Assembly (NCBI RefSeq): GCF_003568845.1
Contig: NZ_CP030126.1
Location: 1,515,001 to 1,579,000, forward strand
Direction of reading: 5' to 3'
Source: Indioceanicola profundi
GTDB taxonomy: Bacteria > Pseudomonadota > Alphaproteobacteria > Azospirillales > Azospirillaceae
Length of the DNA stretch: 64,000 nucleotides
Under the pieces are notes generated by a model that made no database searches, had not been told where the DNA came from, and saw only the letters and a program-made list of their open reading frames with translations. Positions 29,985 to 35,727 of the stretch are shown here, piece by piece (position 1 is the first letter of the stretch; every line of letters starts with the position of its first letter). A program made the translations under genes and the position numbers.

Positions 29985-30779
29985 TCAGGCCTGAAGCCGG
30001 TCCGCGACCAGGTCCAACAGACGGCCGACCGTGGCCACGTCGCTGACGACGAAGGCGGCTTTGGTCGGCTCGCCCGCTTCGGCGACCCTTACCCCGATTC
30101 CGCGCTCGGTAAGGACGGCGAACGCATCCTCGTCGGTCAGGTCGTCTCCCACATAGACAGGCGTGCAGTCGCCCAGTCCCTCTGCTTCCAACACATGCAG
30201 AAGAGCCCGCCCCTTGTCCCAGGGCAGGTTCGGACGTAGCTCGAAGAGTTCCTTGCCGCCGGTCCGCCGCAACTCGGGCTCACCCGCCGCCACGGCCGCT
30301 ACCGCTTCCCCCACCTCCGGCTTGCGTTCCGGCGGAACCTGGCGGGTATGGATCGCCACGGCGTATCGCTTCTTCTCGACGAGCGCGCCGGGAACGGCGG
30401 TAAGGGCGCGCTCCACCGCCTCGCCTGCCCTACTCAGCGCTGCAACATATTCTTCGCCCATGCGGTGGCGACCGCTGGGCGCATCGATGTCGAACCCGTG
30501 GCTGCCGGCGTAGATCAGCCCTTCGACTCCCACCAGCCGGCGCACATCGTCGAGGTCCCGGCCGCTGATGATTCCCAGGGGACACCCTCTGGCCAGCCGG
30601 CGGAGCCTGTCCCTCATCCCTTCGTCCAGCGTCGCCAGATCGGGGCGCGGCGCGATCTCGCTCAGCGTGCCGTCATAATCGAGAAAGATGGCGGGCCGGG
30701 ATGCGGCGATGCGCTCAGCCAGACTTTGCAGCCCGACCTCGTCCAGTAAGGCCGGCTGCTGTTCGGTGCTGGACATCAT
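29985..30779 (-). CDS. otsB: Trehalose-6-phosphate phosphatase OtsB
   Basis: A 264-residue HAD-superfamily enzyme that removes phosphate from trehalose-6-phosphate. The nucleophile motif is FLDYDGTLSEIA, motif II is IISGRDLDD, and the metal motif GDDLTDEDAF is near the C-terminus; PWDKGRALLHVL is the typical OtsB segment. Start 30779 has AGGAG four bases upstream, and an ATG three bases on is equally good. otsA is not next to it in this window, so trehalose synthase is coded elsewhere or the substrate comes from another route. Confidence 0.92.
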   Translation of the reverse strand: MMSSTEQQPALLDEVGLQSLAERIAASRPAIFLDYDGTLSEIAPRPDLATLDEGMRDRLRRLARGCPLGIISGRDLDDVRRLVGVEGLIYAGSHGFDIDAPSGRHRMGEEYVAALSRAGEAVERALTAVPGALVEKKRYAVAIHTRQVPPERKPEVGEAVAAVAAGEPELRRTGGKELFELRPNLPWDKGRALLHVLEAEGLGDCTPVYVGDDLTDEDAFAVLTERGIGVRVAEAGEPTKAAFVVSDVATVGRLLDLVADRLQA

Positions 30780-30915
30780 GGAACTCCTCATCCGCCGTAA
30801 TCCGGACCCGCCCACACATACGGGGTGATGCCGATCCGCAACAAGAAGGCCGAAAACGACGACGGCCCCATGTGGGGCCGTGTCCGGTCTTGCCAAACGC
30901 AACGACAAGTCCAAT

Positions 30916-30951
30916 ATCTTGCAGTGCAGCATCTTGCAGTGCAGCATCTTG
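30916..30951 (+). repeat. 15-bp tandem direct repeat
   Basis: ATCTTGCAGTGCAGC occurs twice back to back (30916-30930, 30931-30945), followed by a partial third copy ATCTTG (30946-30951). It lies directly upstream of, or at the 5' end of, the sRNA candidate at 30946-31018. TGCAGC (30940-30945) can also pair with GCTGCA (30954-30959). Confidence 0.85.
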
Positions 30952-31018
30952 GTGCTGCAGTGCCCTTTTCGGGCGTTTCCTCCCTAAACTCAGGCCGCTC
31001 CTCGGAGCGGCCTTTTTT
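30946..31018 (+). ncRNA. Small RNA candidate, suhB/MmgR (alpha-r8) type
   Basis: Hairpin GCCC-TTTTC-GGGC (30962-30974), then GTTTCCTCCCTA with the ten-base core TTTCCTCCCT at 30976-30985, then a perfect 8-bp terminator stem GGCCGCTC/GAGCGGCC (30993-31000, 31005-31012) and six Ts (31013-31018). No protein gene on this strand ends nearby, so the terminator needs its own RNA. From memory, alphaproteobacterial suhB/alpha-r8 sRNAs such as MmgR keep exactly an unpaired UUUCCUCCCU between a 5' hairpin and a rho-independent terminator. The 5' end is a guess. A second copy faces it at 33091-33183. Confidence 0.75.
30993..31018 (+). terminator. Rho-independent terminator of the sRNA candidate
   Basis: Perfect GC-rich 8-bp stem, CTCG loop and six consecutive Ts. 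It is one of the strongest intrinsic terminators in the window and has no upstream plus-strand CDS to serve. Confidence 0.85.
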
Positions 31019-31395
31019 CTGCCAGATCGACGGAACCGGTACAACCCCCCAAGCGGCCGATGCCCTGGACGAACGGACTATGCCGCACGCCGGATCTGCA
31101 CGGTGCCAGCCCTACGGCACAGCCGAATGTCCGGTACGCTCGGCCGCCCGGAATTGGTCGGATGCTGAACGGAACCGCCCGCCGGGATAGCTGTTCAGGT
31201 CCATTTGGAAACAGCGATTACGGTCCAGCCCCGCAGAGGATGCGCGAAAGTATCGAATACAGACCCGAAAGGTCAGCGCCCCCCACCATCGCACCGGGGC
31301 CGACCTGCGTCCCTGTCCATTAATCTCCTGTGCATCGGGTGGATCGTGCGAGATCCCCTTTAACTTCGGTTCATTTGCAGGAGGGCCGGCCACGC

Positions 31396-33069
31396 ATGAG
31401 GACGGCACCATTGGCCACCATCGATCCTGAAGACGATGCTGGCATCGCCGATGGCGAAACGATCTTCAACGGACTGCTCCTGGCCGTCATCGGCCGCCGC
31501 AGGCTTCTGGTCCTGGTCGGAGACGCGCCGGCAACCCGGGTGGGTCTGCTGGCGCGCTTGGCGCGCCATGTCGAGGCGGAAGGCTGCATGGTGATGACCG
31601 TGGCGGCCGCCACCGGCGTGACCGTGGAGGACCTCATCGAGGTTGCCGGGGCCAGCATGCTGGGCTCGGACTATACGCCTGCCGATTTCGAAGCGCTGGT
31701 GGAGGCGCTGGAGGAGCGGCTGGATCTTGCCGGCACAGGCGTGATGATGGTGGAGGAGGCGGATCGCCTCTCCCCCGACACGTTGCGCGACCTGGTGGAG
31801 TTGTCCGGTTCCGTCAGCCCGTCCGGGCGCTTCTTGCAGGTGCTTCTGTCCGGTGGCCCGGAACTGCGCAACCGGCTGGAACAAGCCGACCTGCTGCCGA
31901 CCGTCGAAGCTGTGGGCACGATTTACACCATCGGGCCGACGGTGACGCCGGAGCGGGACGATCTGCGGATTGCCGATGACGGCCCAATCTTCGCCCCCCG
32001 CAAGGATACCGGGCGGGAAAAGCCGTCGCGCAAGGGCGGCTGGCTCGCCTTCCTGATGATCGGCGTGCTGGGCATCGCCGGCGCCGCCTATCTCTACGAT
32101 ACAGGCGTTCTGGAGGATGAGCGGATCACGGACCTGCTCGGGTTGGAACGGCCGGCGGCAACATCGGTCGCTACGGGTCCGGCAGACACCCGGTCAGGTC
32201 TTGAGCCCACGCGTGACCGCGTCGCGGATGTATCCGCGCCAACCGGAACGGCCGACACCGCCTTCAATACTCCGCCGGAGGTTCCGAGCGCCGGCCGTAC
32301 GGGCACGGCAGCCGGAGATGCGGCAACCCAGGCGCAGCCGGCCCCCGCGCAACCGACAGCCGGCACGGTCGCAACCTCTACCCCTCCGGCGGCCGAGGAG
32401 CCCACGCGCTACTCCGCCGAGGATGTGGAGCGTTTCTCGGAGCTTGCGGGGCGTGTCCTCAGCGGGGAAGACGTCCCGGCGGAGCCCGCTCCTGCCGCGG
32501 GGTCGGCCAGCCTTCCTGACCCGGCCCGGCAGGCCCCGCCTCCCGAAGAGTCCCAGCCTCTGGATGATGAGGAGTTGGCCGAACTCGACAGCGCGGAGCA
32601 GGCAGCCGACGAGAAGCTGGCGCAGGATGCGGCCTCTCCGGCCCGCGAGGAGGATGTCGCGCTTGCACCTCCTCCCGGCCCGACGCAGGCCGAGGCGCGG
32701 CAGCTCCGGACGCTCGCGAGCCGGGCGGAAGCACAGTTCGCCGCGCGCAAGCTGACAACGCCCCAGGCCGACAACGCTTTCACCACCCTGCAGGAAATCC
32801 GCGCCATCGATCCGCGCCACCCGCTTCTGGCGGACCTGCGGCGGCGCATCCTGGAAACCTATCAGGCCTGGGCGAATACGGCGGAGGCCAGACAGGACTG
32901 GCAGACGGCCCGTGTTTATTATCAACGCGCTCTTCGCGTCGATCCGGCAAATCCGGCGGTTACCGCAAAACTGGATGCGGTCGACGACCGGCTGGCCGGT
33001 CGGCCGCAGGTATCGCAGAGCCCGCCGCAGCCAGAAGACGCGCCGCCGGAACCCCGGCTACGCCCCTGA
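31396..33069 (+). CDS. ExeA-like AAA-fold membrane protein with lost P-loop, plus TPR domain
   Basis: A 557-residue protein. The N-terminal domain (about 1-190) follows the ExeA/secretion ATPase pattern: the Walker B-like VMMVEEADRLS and SGGPELRNRLEQ are clear. The P-loop position, however, reads GDAPATRVG, lacking the GKT. A membrane helix lies at about 218-237 (GGWLAFLMIGVLGIAGAAYL), then 170 residues of Pro/Ala/Glu-rich linker and a C-terminal TPR unit (ARQDWQTARVYYQRALRVDP). ATG 31396 has AGGAGG 11 bases upstream. It is bracketed by two facing sRNA candidates. The function is unknown; it may be a scaffold at the envelope rather than an ATPase. Confidence 0.72.
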   Translation: MRTAPLATIDPEDDAGIADGETIFNGLLLAVIGRRRLLVLVGDAPATRVGLLARLARHVEAEGCMVMTVAAATGVTVEDLIEVAGASMLGSDYTPADFEALVEALEERLDLAGTGVMMVEEADRLSPDTLRDLVELSGSVSPSGRFLQVLLSGGPELRNRLEQADLLPTVEAVGTIYTIGPTVTPERDDLRIADDGPIFAPRKDTGREKPSRKGGWLAFLMIGVLGIAGAAYLYDTGVLEDERITDLLGLERPAATSVATGPADTRSGLEPTRDRVADVSAPTGTADTAFNTPPEVPSAGRTGTAAGDAATQAQPAPAQPTAGTVATSTPPAAEEPTRYSAEDVERFSELAGRVLSGEDVPAEPAPAAGSASLPDPARQAPPPEESQPLDDEELAELDSAEQAADEKLAQDAASPAREEDVALAPPPGPTQAEARQLRTLASRAEAQFAARKLTTPQADNAFTTLQEIRAIDPRHPLLADLRRRILETYQAWANTAEARQDWQTARVYYQRALRVDPANPAVTAKLDAVDDRLAGRPQVSQSPPQPEDAPPEPRLRP

Positions 33070-33090
33070 AGCAGAAGCAACTCACAGACG

Positions 33091-33183
33091 AAAAAAGCCC
33101 CGGCCTGGCAGAGACAGGCCGGGGTTTCAAGTTTCACTAGGGAGGAAACGCAACCACAGTTGCCCGCCCTGAATACCGGGCGC
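33091..33183 (-). ncRNA. Small RNA candidate, suhB/MmgR (alpha-r8) type, second copy
   Basis: Read on the minus strand: hairpin GCAAC-TGTG-GTTGC (33163-33150), then GTTTCCTCCCTA with the core TTTCCTCCCT at 33148-33139, 14 unpaired bases, and a 10-bp perfect terminator stem CCCCGGCCTG/CAGGCCGGGG (33124-33115, 33107-33098) followed by C and six Ts. The 14-base string GCGTTTCCTCCCTA is identical to that of the plus-strand candidate at 30973-30986. A TATCAT at about 33196-33191 (minus strand) could be the -10 box. The terminator may also end the plus-strand gene at 33069. Confidence 0.75.
33098..33127. terminator. Shared terminator between ExeA-like gene and sRNA
   Basis: CCCCGGCCTG (33098-33107) and CAGGCCGGGG (33115-33124) form a perfect 10-bp stem with a 7-base loop. 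On the minus strand it is followed by C plus TTTTTT; on the plus strand by TTTC. It therefore serves the sRNA best and the upstream CDS weakly. Confidence 0.82.
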
Positions 33184-33366
33184 CGCTTAAATGATAGTTA
33201 ACAAGAGCAAGAAAATCGAAGATTTCTCCTTTTAATACTTAATTGTGACAGGGCCGGATTACCCTTCCGATTGGCCAAATCAGCTTTGGCCTTGGCGACG
33301 GGCATTGGCTGCGCTATCCAGCCGGAACCGGGCCCCGGCGGGGGCGCATTTCGGATATTCCTGTCC

Positions 33367-35727
33367 ATGAACAGCCTGAACTCCCGTATCGCTACCCAGA
33401 TCGCCCAGGAGCTGGGCGTTCGTCCGCAGCAGGTGGAAGCCACGGTCGGCCTGCTGGACGAAGGCTCGACGGTCCCGTTCATCGCCCGTTACCGCAAGGA
33501 AGCCACCGGCGGTCTGGACGATACGCAGCTCCGCACCCTGGAGGAACGGCTGCGCTATCTCCGCGAACTGGAGGAGCGTCGGGCCACGATCAAGGCCAGC
33601 ATCGTGGAACAGGGCAAAATGACGCCCGAGCTGGAACGGGACATCGATACGGCCGACACCAAGACGCGGCTGGAAGACCTTTACCTTCCCTATCGGCCCA
33701 AGCGCCGGACCAAGGCCATGATCGCCCGGGAAGCCGGGCTGGAGCCGCTGGCCGATCTGCTGCTGTCCGACCCGACCCGGACGCCGGAGATGGAGGCCGC
33801 CGCCTTCGTCGACGCGGAGAAGGGCGTCGCGGATACCAAAGCCGCTTTGGACGGCGCCCGCGCCATCCTGGTGGAGCGGATGGGCGAGGATGCGGAACTC
33901 GTGGGTTCGTTGCGCAGCTACGCCCAGGATCATGGCCGCGTGGTCTCCCGCCTTGTGGAGGGGAAGGCCGAGGAAGGGGCGAAGTTCTCCGATTATTTCG
34001 ACTTCGCGGAACCGCTGAAGCAGGTGCCGAGCCATCGTGCCCTGGCCCTGTTCCGTGGCCGGGCCGGCGGGGTCCTTGACCTGAAGATGGAAGTCGGGGA
34101 CGAGCCCGCGCCGGGCTATCCGCATCCGGCGGAGGCGATGATCGCCGCCCGTTTCAGGATCGCGGACCGGAGCCGGCCGGCCGACAAGTGGCTGCTGGAA
34201 TGCTGCCGTTGGGCATGGCGCACCAAGATCGCCCTGCACCTGGAACTCGACCTCATGAACGTCGTTCGCGAGCGCGCCGAGGATGAGGCCATCGCGGTGT
34301 TCGGCCGGAACCTGAAGGACCTGTTGCTGGCCCCGCCGGCCGGCATGCGGGTCACCATCGGCCTCGACCCTGGTATCCGCACCGGCGTGAAGGTCGCGGT
34401 GGTGGATGCCACAGGCAAGCTGGTGGAGACCACCACCATCTACCCGCATGAGCCGCGGAAGGACTGGGACGGATCGATCGCCACGCTGGCGGCGCTGGCC
34501 CACCGGCACAAGGCCGACCTGATCGCCATCGGCAACGGCACCGCCAGCCGGGAAACCGACAAGCTGGCGGCCGACCTGATGAACCGCCATCCCGAGCTGA
34601 AGCTGACCAAGGTCATGGTTTCCGAAGCCGGCGCATCGGTCTATTCCGCCTCGGAGGTCGCGGCGCTGGAGTTCCCGAAGCTGGACGTCTCCCTGCGCGG
34701 CGCAGTGTCCATCGCGCGGCGGCTCCAGGACCCGCTGGCGGAACTGGTGAAGATCGACCCGAAATCCATCGGCGTCGGCCAGTACCAGCATGATGTTTCG
34801 CCCACCAAGCTGGCCCGTACCCTCGATGCGACTGTCGAAGACTGCGTGAACGGCGTCGGCGTGGACCTGAACACCGCCTCTGTGCCGCTGCTGGCGCGCG
34901 TCTCCGGCCTGTCGGAGAGCGTGGCGAAGAATATCGTGGAGTTCCGCGATACGCATGGCGCGTTCCGCCGTCGCAGGCAGTTGCTGGATGTGAGCCGCCT
35001 CGGCCCCAAGGCATTCGAGCAGGCGGCGGGCTTCCTCCGCATCCGGGACGGGGAGAACCCGCTGGACGGCTCCTCCGTCCACCCGGAGGCCTATCCGGTG
35101 GTGGAGCGGATCATGAAAAAGACCGGCCGCAGCCTGGAAAAGCTGATCGGCGACGTCACCTTCCTGCGTTCCCTCGATCCGGCGGAATTCACGGATGAGA
35201 AGTTCGGCGTTCCCACCGTGACCGACATCCTGCACGAACTGGAAAAGCCGGGCCGCGATCCGCGCCCCGAATTCAAGACCGCCGCCTTCAAAGAGGGGGT
35301 GGAGGATCTGAAGGATCTCCAGCCCGGCATGGTGCTGGAGGGCGTGGTCACCAACGTGACCAACTTCGGAGCTTTCGTGGATGTGGGCGTCCACCAGGAC
35401 GGGCTAGTGCATATCTCCCAGCTCTCCCACTCCTTCGTGAAAGACCCGCACAGCGTTGTGAAGGCGGGCGATATCGTGAAGGTGAAGGTCCTGGAGGTGG
35501 ACCTGAAGCGCAAGCGCGTGGCCCTGACCATGAAGCTGGACGAGCGCCCTGCCCCGGCCCGGCGCGACGATGCTCGCCGCGATGACGCACGGCGCGACGG
35601 GTCCCGGCCATCCTCGCAGCCGCCCCGAGCCCCCCAGGGCCGGCCGGCACAGCCGAAGCAGCCTGCGGGAGCCGACATGGGCGCCCTTGGGGCGGCGCTT
35701 GCCGCCGCCATGTCGAAGAAGCGCTGA
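33367..35727 (+). CDS. tex: Tex family RNA-binding transcription accessory protein
   Basis: A 786-residue protein with the full Tex layout: N-terminal Tex domain ([19 protein letters not shown]), YqgF/RNase H-like domain ([20 protein letters not shown]), helix-hairpin-helix units ([20 protein letters not shown]) and a C-terminal S1 domain ([20 protein letters not shown]). A basic tail with DDARR repeats is added after S1. Tex binds nucleic acid and affects transcription and toxin expression in several bacteria. ATG 33367 begins the conserved [14 protein letters not shown]. It is a lone gene. Confidence 0.95.

Follow-up and report, generated by a model that had tools for sequence, protein, structure and literature searches.

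The 64,000-nucleotide stretch of Indioceanicola profundi DNA analysed here (the window) contains two predicted small RNA (sRNA) genes of the alpha-R8 (suhB/mmgR) type, which face each other across a gene for an ExeA-like ATPase. The first, copy 1, is divergent from otsB; the second, copy 2, is divergent from tex and is preceded by a sequence resembling a binding site for the regulator CtrA. Positions are counted from the first letter of the window, and the features at the locus are as follows.

30889 to 30917, plus strand: sigma70-like elements of copy 1, recognized by eye (CTTGCC at 30889-30894, a 17-nt spacer, CAATAT at 30912-30917).
30920 to 30949, plus strand: tandem duplication of the 15-nt TGCAGTGCAGCATCT (two units) in the 5' stem region of copy 1, read from the sequence.
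30924 to 31018, plus strand: copy 1, predicted alpha-R8 (suhB/mmgR) sRNA of about 95 nt, from the RF00519 match and aligned relatives; 5' end predicted.
30962 to 30974, plus strand: 5' hairpin of copy 1, GCCC-TTTTC-GGGC, ahead of the core, from sequence and folding.
30976 to 30985, plus strand: core of copy 1, TTTCCTCCCT, from a sequence match.
30992 to 31018, plus strand: predicted intrinsic terminator of copy 1, stem at 30992-31013.
33091 to 33163, minus strand: copy 2, predicted alpha-R8 sRNA (tex-divergent type C) of about 73 nt, from an RF00519 match below the cut-off and from orthologues; 5' end predicted.
33091 to 33124, minus strand: predicted intrinsic terminator of copy 2, stem at 33124-33098.
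33139 to 33148, minus strand: core of copy 2, TTTCCTCCCT, from a sequence match.
33150 to 33163, minus strand: 5' hairpin of copy 2, GCAAC-TGTG-GTTGC, from sequence, folding and relatives.
33171 to 33176, minus strand: -10-like element of copy 2, GTATTC, recognized by eye where relatives have an A+T-rich element.
33187 to 33201, minus strand: CtrA-type site TTAACTATCATTTAA (TTAA-N7-TTAA), its 5' base about 38 nt before the predicted copy 2 start, from a motif scan and relatives.
29985 to 30779, minus strand: otsB, trehalose phosphatase, divergent from copy 1; start estimated.
31396 to 33069, plus strand: ExeA-like AAA ATPase gene between the copies, from a family match; probably outside the system.
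33367 to 35727, plus strand: tex, divergent from copy 2; start estimated.

The 14-mer GCGTTTCCTCCCTA, which the initial annotation had reported on both strands, has exact matches at 30973-30986 (+) and 33138-33151 (-); elsewhere the window contains nothing within two mismatches of it. The number of such matches (up to two mismatches) expected in the window is 0.27, and 1 of 100 shuffles had two. Across the genome, TTTCCTCCCT has 17 exact places, against one for the reversed pattern; five are in an sRNA-like context, six directly precede a start codon and six are elsewhere. Expectation, shuffles and genome-wide counts rule out a chance repeat as the origin of the two 14-mers. The layout is likewise common to both copies: a 5' hairpin is followed by the core UUUCCUCCCU and then by a Rho-independent terminator, a stem with TTTTTT. 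The alpha-R8 layout, as given in the accessible part of PMC12559287, is a weak hairpin, a single-stranded UUUCCUCCCU and a Rho-independent terminator. The predicted fold of copy 1 (30946-31019, +) has a z-score of -3.0, with none of 200 shuffles equally stable; for copy 2 the z-score is -3.2 over 33091-33183 (-), with 0 of 200 shuffles as good, and -2.7 over 33091-33170 (-), with 1 of 200. The hairpins, the strong terminators with six Ts, and the description of the core as an anti-Shine-Dalgarno sequence, complementary to AGGGAGGAAA-like sites, all stand as first proposed.

Covariance searches bore out the earlier assignment to the suhB/MmgR family, more firmly for copy 1. The RF00519 model (suhB/mmgR, alpha-R8), whose gathering cut-off in Rfam is 41 bits, gave 32 matches at E ≤10 in the I. 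profundi genome (5.37 Mb, 4 contigs). A CCTCC core and a terminator are present in each of the top seven, which score from 59.3 down to 34.4 bits with E values no higher than 5.1e-5; three of them pass the cut-off, and copy 2 ranks seventh. Judged from these sequences, the genome appears to hold about seven alpha-R8-like genes, of which the facing pair are two.

Copy 1 scores 59.3 bits at 30955-31027. Its 5' end probably lies near 30924, since orthologues share an extra 5' stem and upstream promoter-like elements. In an alignment of copy 1 with 12 relatives (13 genomes), similar sigma70 elements are seen in G002, G009, G012, G018 and G022, and less distinct ones in the other relatives; a scan for E. 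coli-type promoters returned no sites. The duplication of TGCAGTGCAGCATCT adds to the 5' stem region of copy 1 and is absent from all 12 aligned relatives. Copy 2 scores 34.4 bits (genome-wide E 5.1e-5), the best of the 15 families listed at that place. The others, Pseudomon-1/ErsA (26.2 bits against a cut-off of 50) and 13 more, all fall below their own cut-offs. We call copy 2 an alpha-R8-type sRNA because of its core, layout and best family match; under the Rfam rule it is not a member. Its 5' end is predicted near 33163 and not at 33183. Of the extents first given, the 3' ends (about 31018 and 33091) thus hold, and the 5' ends have moved, from 30946 to about 30924 and from 33183 to about 33163.

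Alpha-R8-like copies were sorted into types by the hairpin that precedes the core. RF00519 matched 33 of 39 genomes (the source genome included) at E 0.001, and in 32 of these a match exceeded the cut-off; the largest number of matches in one genome was 13. Type A is the broad GCCC..GGGC class; its search pattern TTGGGCGTTTCCTCCCT was found in 80 of 82 family genomes, and it misses copy 1, which is of the GCCC..GGGC kind and has TCGGGC. Type C, to which copy 2 belongs, has a GCAAC..GUUGC hairpin; its 15-mer GKTGCGTTTCCTCCC was found in 53 of the 82 genomes and the reversed pattern in none. Type C hairpins were counted by script, as the 5' arms are out of register in the alignment because loop lengths differ (3 to 8 nt). 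At least five perfect pairs are present in 42 of 45 distinct sequences, compared with 13.6% of shuffles; the exceptions are two sequences with four pairs and one with none. In one genus CGCAC/GUGCG replaces GCAAC/GUUGC.

A scan of one genome per species (about 85,000 species) with GCAAC-N2-6-GTTGCGTTTCCTCCC found 35 stretches; many of the named records duplicate assemblies of the family genomes and so are not independent of them. Thirty-two belong to Azospirillum, Niveispirillum, Aerophototrophica, Oleisolibacter and one record labelled Roseomonas, genera that we take to represent the Azospirillaceae. The remaining three (Streptomyces, Sphingomonas and a Burkholderiales metagenome-assembled genome) have neither a terminator T-run nor the promoter site. 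At the Rfam cut-off, none of 18 type C copies (14 named loci) was reported, only two type A copies. By its sequence, copy 2 belongs to a separate alpha-R8 clade of the Azospirillaceae, defined by the GCAAC/GUUGC hairpin. The initial annotation missed this clade and its CtrA-type promoter.

Several other copies deserve mention. Four genomes (G048, G060, G064 and G065; loci L211, L220, L225 and L226) carry two tandem type C copies, 170-203 nt apart, upstream of tex, with a CtrA-type site for each copy. At the place upstream of tex, L146 and L150 (G012 and G018) have a damaged core, CCCTCCC for TCCTCCC, with the terminator and TTAACCAT intact, which may reflect decay or changed specificity. L106 and L107 (G016 and G007) represent an alpha-R8-like type with an ATGTCC..GGACA-like hairpin and, at -50 from the core, TTAACCAT, a word resembling a CtrA half-site. 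A third conserved type, with hairpin GCCTGGTGGC or GCTTGGTGGC followed by GATTCCTCCCTAA, has one copy in the source genome and includes L006, L101, L102, L104, L108-L112, L114, L119-L121 and L124. At L025:1501-1510, TTTCCTCCCT lies within a long inverted repeat, GGACAGGGTT..AACCCTGTCC, for which there was no Rfam match at the gathering cut-off.

The cell cycle and motility are under the control of the master regulator CtrA. Alignment of copy 2 relatives revealed an upstream TTAAC-N6-TTAA(C). TTAA-N7-TTAA occurs once in the window, at 33187-33201 (expected 0.00), and the stricter TTAAC-N6-TTAA at eight places in the genome, the copy 2 site being one. According to the accessible text of PMC4287350, TTAA-N7-TTAA is the full CtrA motif of Caulobacter and lies at -39 of ctrA P2, which CtrA activates; that of PMC7200025 states that Hyphomonas CtrA binds TTAA-N7-TTAAC. 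Among 58 candidates collected before the test described below, 12 contained the full motif or TTAACC; each of the 12 was either type C-like, in one case degenerate, or of the same kind as L106 and L107, and no other type was represented. Seven genera in this set reached 7 or 8 of the 8 bases, with the full motif in G000, G002 and G009 and one base off in G022, G007/G016, G017/G021 and G014.

The site was then scored over the 8 bases of TTAA-N7-TTAA, with a threshold of at least 7, in genomes other than those that had revealed the motif. The threshold was reached by 49 of 59 type C loci and 1 of 26 type A loci (Fisher p 1.8e-12, kinship ignored); the counts are not independent, because 47 of the 59 loci come from one genus (a second contributes 5 and a third 7). 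Windows shifted by 100-250 nt gave 1, 2, 1 and 0 of 59. The start of the site is at a nearly fixed distance from the core, -53 to -58 in nearly all type C loci that reach 7/8. The genome encodes a CtrA orthologue at 418.6 bits (the cut-off is 350, and the runner-up scores 169.3), and TTAACC was noted by eye in the region upstream of its gene. Of three proteins encoded beside other strict sites, one has an MCP-signal, one a HAMP and one a PAS/GAF domain, which is in keeping with a motility and signalling regulon, although three are too few for proof.

We consider it probable that both features are genes for trans-acting alpha-R8 (suhB/MmgR/SisA) sRNAs that repress translation through the core, copy 2 being switched by CtrA. 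Several observations weigh against this. Copy 2 lies below the Rfam cut-off (34.4 against 41 bits). Strict TTAAC-N6-TTAA shows only a modest genomic excess, 10 rows (two palindromic sites counted on both strands) against 2 for the reversed control. None of the 59 test loci has all eight bases, the best having seven, and 10 fall below 7/8; of these, five match six bases, and the other five look like accidental hits within coding sequence. Once the coding-like loci are dropped and L227 is added, all 46 tex-adjacent type C loci reach 7/8, and among the nine without tex in the stretch four reach 7 and all nine reach 6. The ribosome sites of three phasin genes do not contain the full seed complement, so that a link to polyhydroxybutyrate, as for MmgR, is unsupported here. 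Finally, the motif is flanked by divergent genes, and tex may be the gene on which it acts.

This last point leads to an alternative in which tex is the gene served by the CtrA-type site, with copy 2 adjoining that site by position only and using another promoter. The difference between tex-adjacent loci (46/46 at 7/8 or better) and those without tex in the stretch (4/9) would fit it, as does the divergent arrangement. Nevertheless, the site keeps its nearly fixed distance from the sRNA core while tex lies anywhere from 162 to 663 nt from that core. The outer type C copy of the doubled loci (L211, L220, L225 and L226) has a site of its own at the same spacing, loci with no tex in view still retain 6 or 7 of the 8 bases, and the -10-like element lies towards the sRNA. 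We therefore regard this alternative as unlikely. A similarly small chance is given to a regulator other than CtrA that would read the conserved TTAAC repeat. That the genome has only eight strict places, with three of the neighbouring genes tested, leaves some room for it; against it, the repeat fits the published CtrA motifs in sequence and, measured from the predicted start, in position (accessible parts of PMC4287350 and PMC7200025), and the genome has a CtrA orthologue. Control of copy 2 by CtrA is the reading that we retain.

The two copies do not appear to be parts of one device. The facing order is not due to chance, as originally argued, since it recurs on one contig in six of the genomes examined, at intervals of about 2.2 kb (G000), 10.7 (G002), 17.8 (G007), 2.1 (G009), 19.0 (G016) and 0.4 kb (G022). 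The window, G009 and L302 of Aerophototrophica crusticola (identical with assembly G088) share the order otsB, copy 1, ExeA-like gene, copy 2, tex. This five-gene order, and the facing arrangement over longer distances in G002, G007 and G016, would suit the proposal that the pair and the ExeA-like gene form a single twin-riboregulator unit. However, the interval extends up to 19 kb, G022 has the facing pair and no ExeA-like match, and in G017 and G021 copy 1 and the ExeA-like gene are on one contig and copy 2 and tex on another. A single unit is thus quite improbable: the part of the earlier proposal that concerned a facing pair survived the synteny comparison, and the inclusion of the ExeA-like gene did not.

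Each copy has instead its own neighbour. tex is divergent in 47 of 61 type C matches, that is, in every match with tex in the stretch examined. otsB accompanies the copy 1 relative in 6 of the 13 aligned genomes (G000, G002, G009, G017, G021 and G022), and in the other seven it was not seen within the short flanks examined. G012 and G018 have the damaged core in the facing place. In G014, where tex was not found genome-wide at E 1e-100, the type C copy faces an ExeA-like gene. The pattern used detected no clear type C copy upstream of tex in G001, G003, G005, G006, G011, G013, G015, G019 and G020. The ExeA-like protein has a match to AAA_22 at 35.3 bits, above the cut-off of 27, and weak matches to TPR models; a search of genome contigs confirmed no relatives. 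Because neighbours and intervals vary, we interpret the copies as separate genes with separate anchors that lie near each other in part of the family. The idea that copy 2 is a mere conserved terminator or relic, which its low Rfam score and the degenerate cores in G012 and G018 might suggest, is highly improbable, as core, hairpin and promoter motif are kept together even in G022, in which the terminator is not preceded by an ExeA-like gene.

The sequence, predicted structure, family match, conservation, CtrA motif at fixed spacing and CtrA orthologue suggest the following mechanism. Copy 1 would be transcribed from its sigma70-like elements. Copy 2 would be switched by CtrA, which may bind the full motif ahead of the -10-like element and act in either direction; if so, the cell-cycle, motility or encystment state would switch copy 2 as well. 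The U tail at the terminator of each RNA is of the kind that binds Hfq, and both RNAs may do so. The core 5'-UUUCCUCCCU-3' would pair with AGGGAGGAAA-like ribosome-binding sites and repress translation, by analogy with SisA in Caulobacter; the accessible part of PMC12559287 reports that SisA represses mRNAs through this core with Hfq and that CrfA sponges SisA. Copy 2 would accordingly be a CtrA-controlled sRNA that covers Shine-Dalgarno sites. As the seed is common and the promoters differ, we propose that the two copies act on similar sets of targets in different conditions.

Exact AGGGAGGAAA occurs 2-8 nt before ATG in six genes, which make up the candidate targets. Judged by eye, their products resemble a 4-hydroxyphenylpyruvate dioxygenase, a UspA protein, a TonB-dependent receptor, a CobC-like aminotransferase, a short-chain dehydrogenase and a quinone oxidoreductase. 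The broader pattern GGGAGGAA-N3-10-ATG gave 66 sites against 3 for the control; these were left out as targets because most are ordinary Shine-Dalgarno sites.

The alpha-R8 sRNAs are widespread in the Alphaproteobacteria, and the family is known; the clade and its promoter link appear to be new. Why many genomes have several copies with the same seed is named as future work in the accessible part of PMC12559287. A clade with a promoter motif that is absent from the compared class makes 'same seed, different trigger' testable at one site. In a wider proposal, which we hold to be evenly balanced, the whole Azospirillaceae clade would belong to the CtrA regulon, with the tex-divergent sRNA retuning metabolic and uptake genes post-transcriptionally between motile, dividing and encysting states, and same-seed copies with other promoters acting under other conditions. 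In R. centenum, which belongs to the Azospirillum clade, encystment is enhanced when CtrA is deleted and suppressed by phosphomimetic CtrA (PMC4340629, accessible part); if correct, our reading would tie the alpha-R8 family to a regulator of motility and encystment in relatives of Azospirillum. A practical consequence is that the Rfam model, used at its cut-off, overlooks the type C copies tested (0/18).

A phylogeny of the alpha-R8 family has reportedly been presented by Lagares et al. (2016). Among the literature matches listed for CtrA together with alpha-R8, both terms or the term alphar8 came up in PMC7143759 and PMC12559287 alone, and the CtrA text in the accessible part of PMC7143759 concerns EcpR1 and GspR. 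Known CtrA targets include non-coding RNAs, with no alpha-R8 RNA named in the accessible parts of PMC4287350 and PMC7143759; the corresponding part of PMC12559287, on SisA, mentions CtrA 0 times. A text search for Azospirillum, sRNA and suhB returned no paper, and in the accessible part of the A. brasilense sRNA paper PMC7685610 the Rfam matches are tRNA.

Compared with MmgR (alpha-r8, RF00519) of Sinorhizobium meliloti, both copies are alike in family, hairpin, core and terminator. S. meliloti has no alpha-R8 copy besides MmgR, which is under NtrC and AniA control (PMC7143759, PMC8401924 and PMC12559287, accessible parts), whereas copy 2 has another hairpin and a CtrA-type promoter. The usual alpha-R8 neighbour is an N-formylglutamate amidohydrolase gene (PMC12559287, accessible part); copies 1 and 2 adjoin otsB, the ExeA-like gene and tex. 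Copy 2 resembles CtrA full-motif promoters in the motif and, as far as the predicted start is right, in its position. A further parallel is SisA-D of Caulobacter crescentus, where again several copies share one 10-nt core and their promoters are unrelated. According to the accessible text of PMC12559287, sisA-D have no common upstream motif, whereas the type C clade has one.

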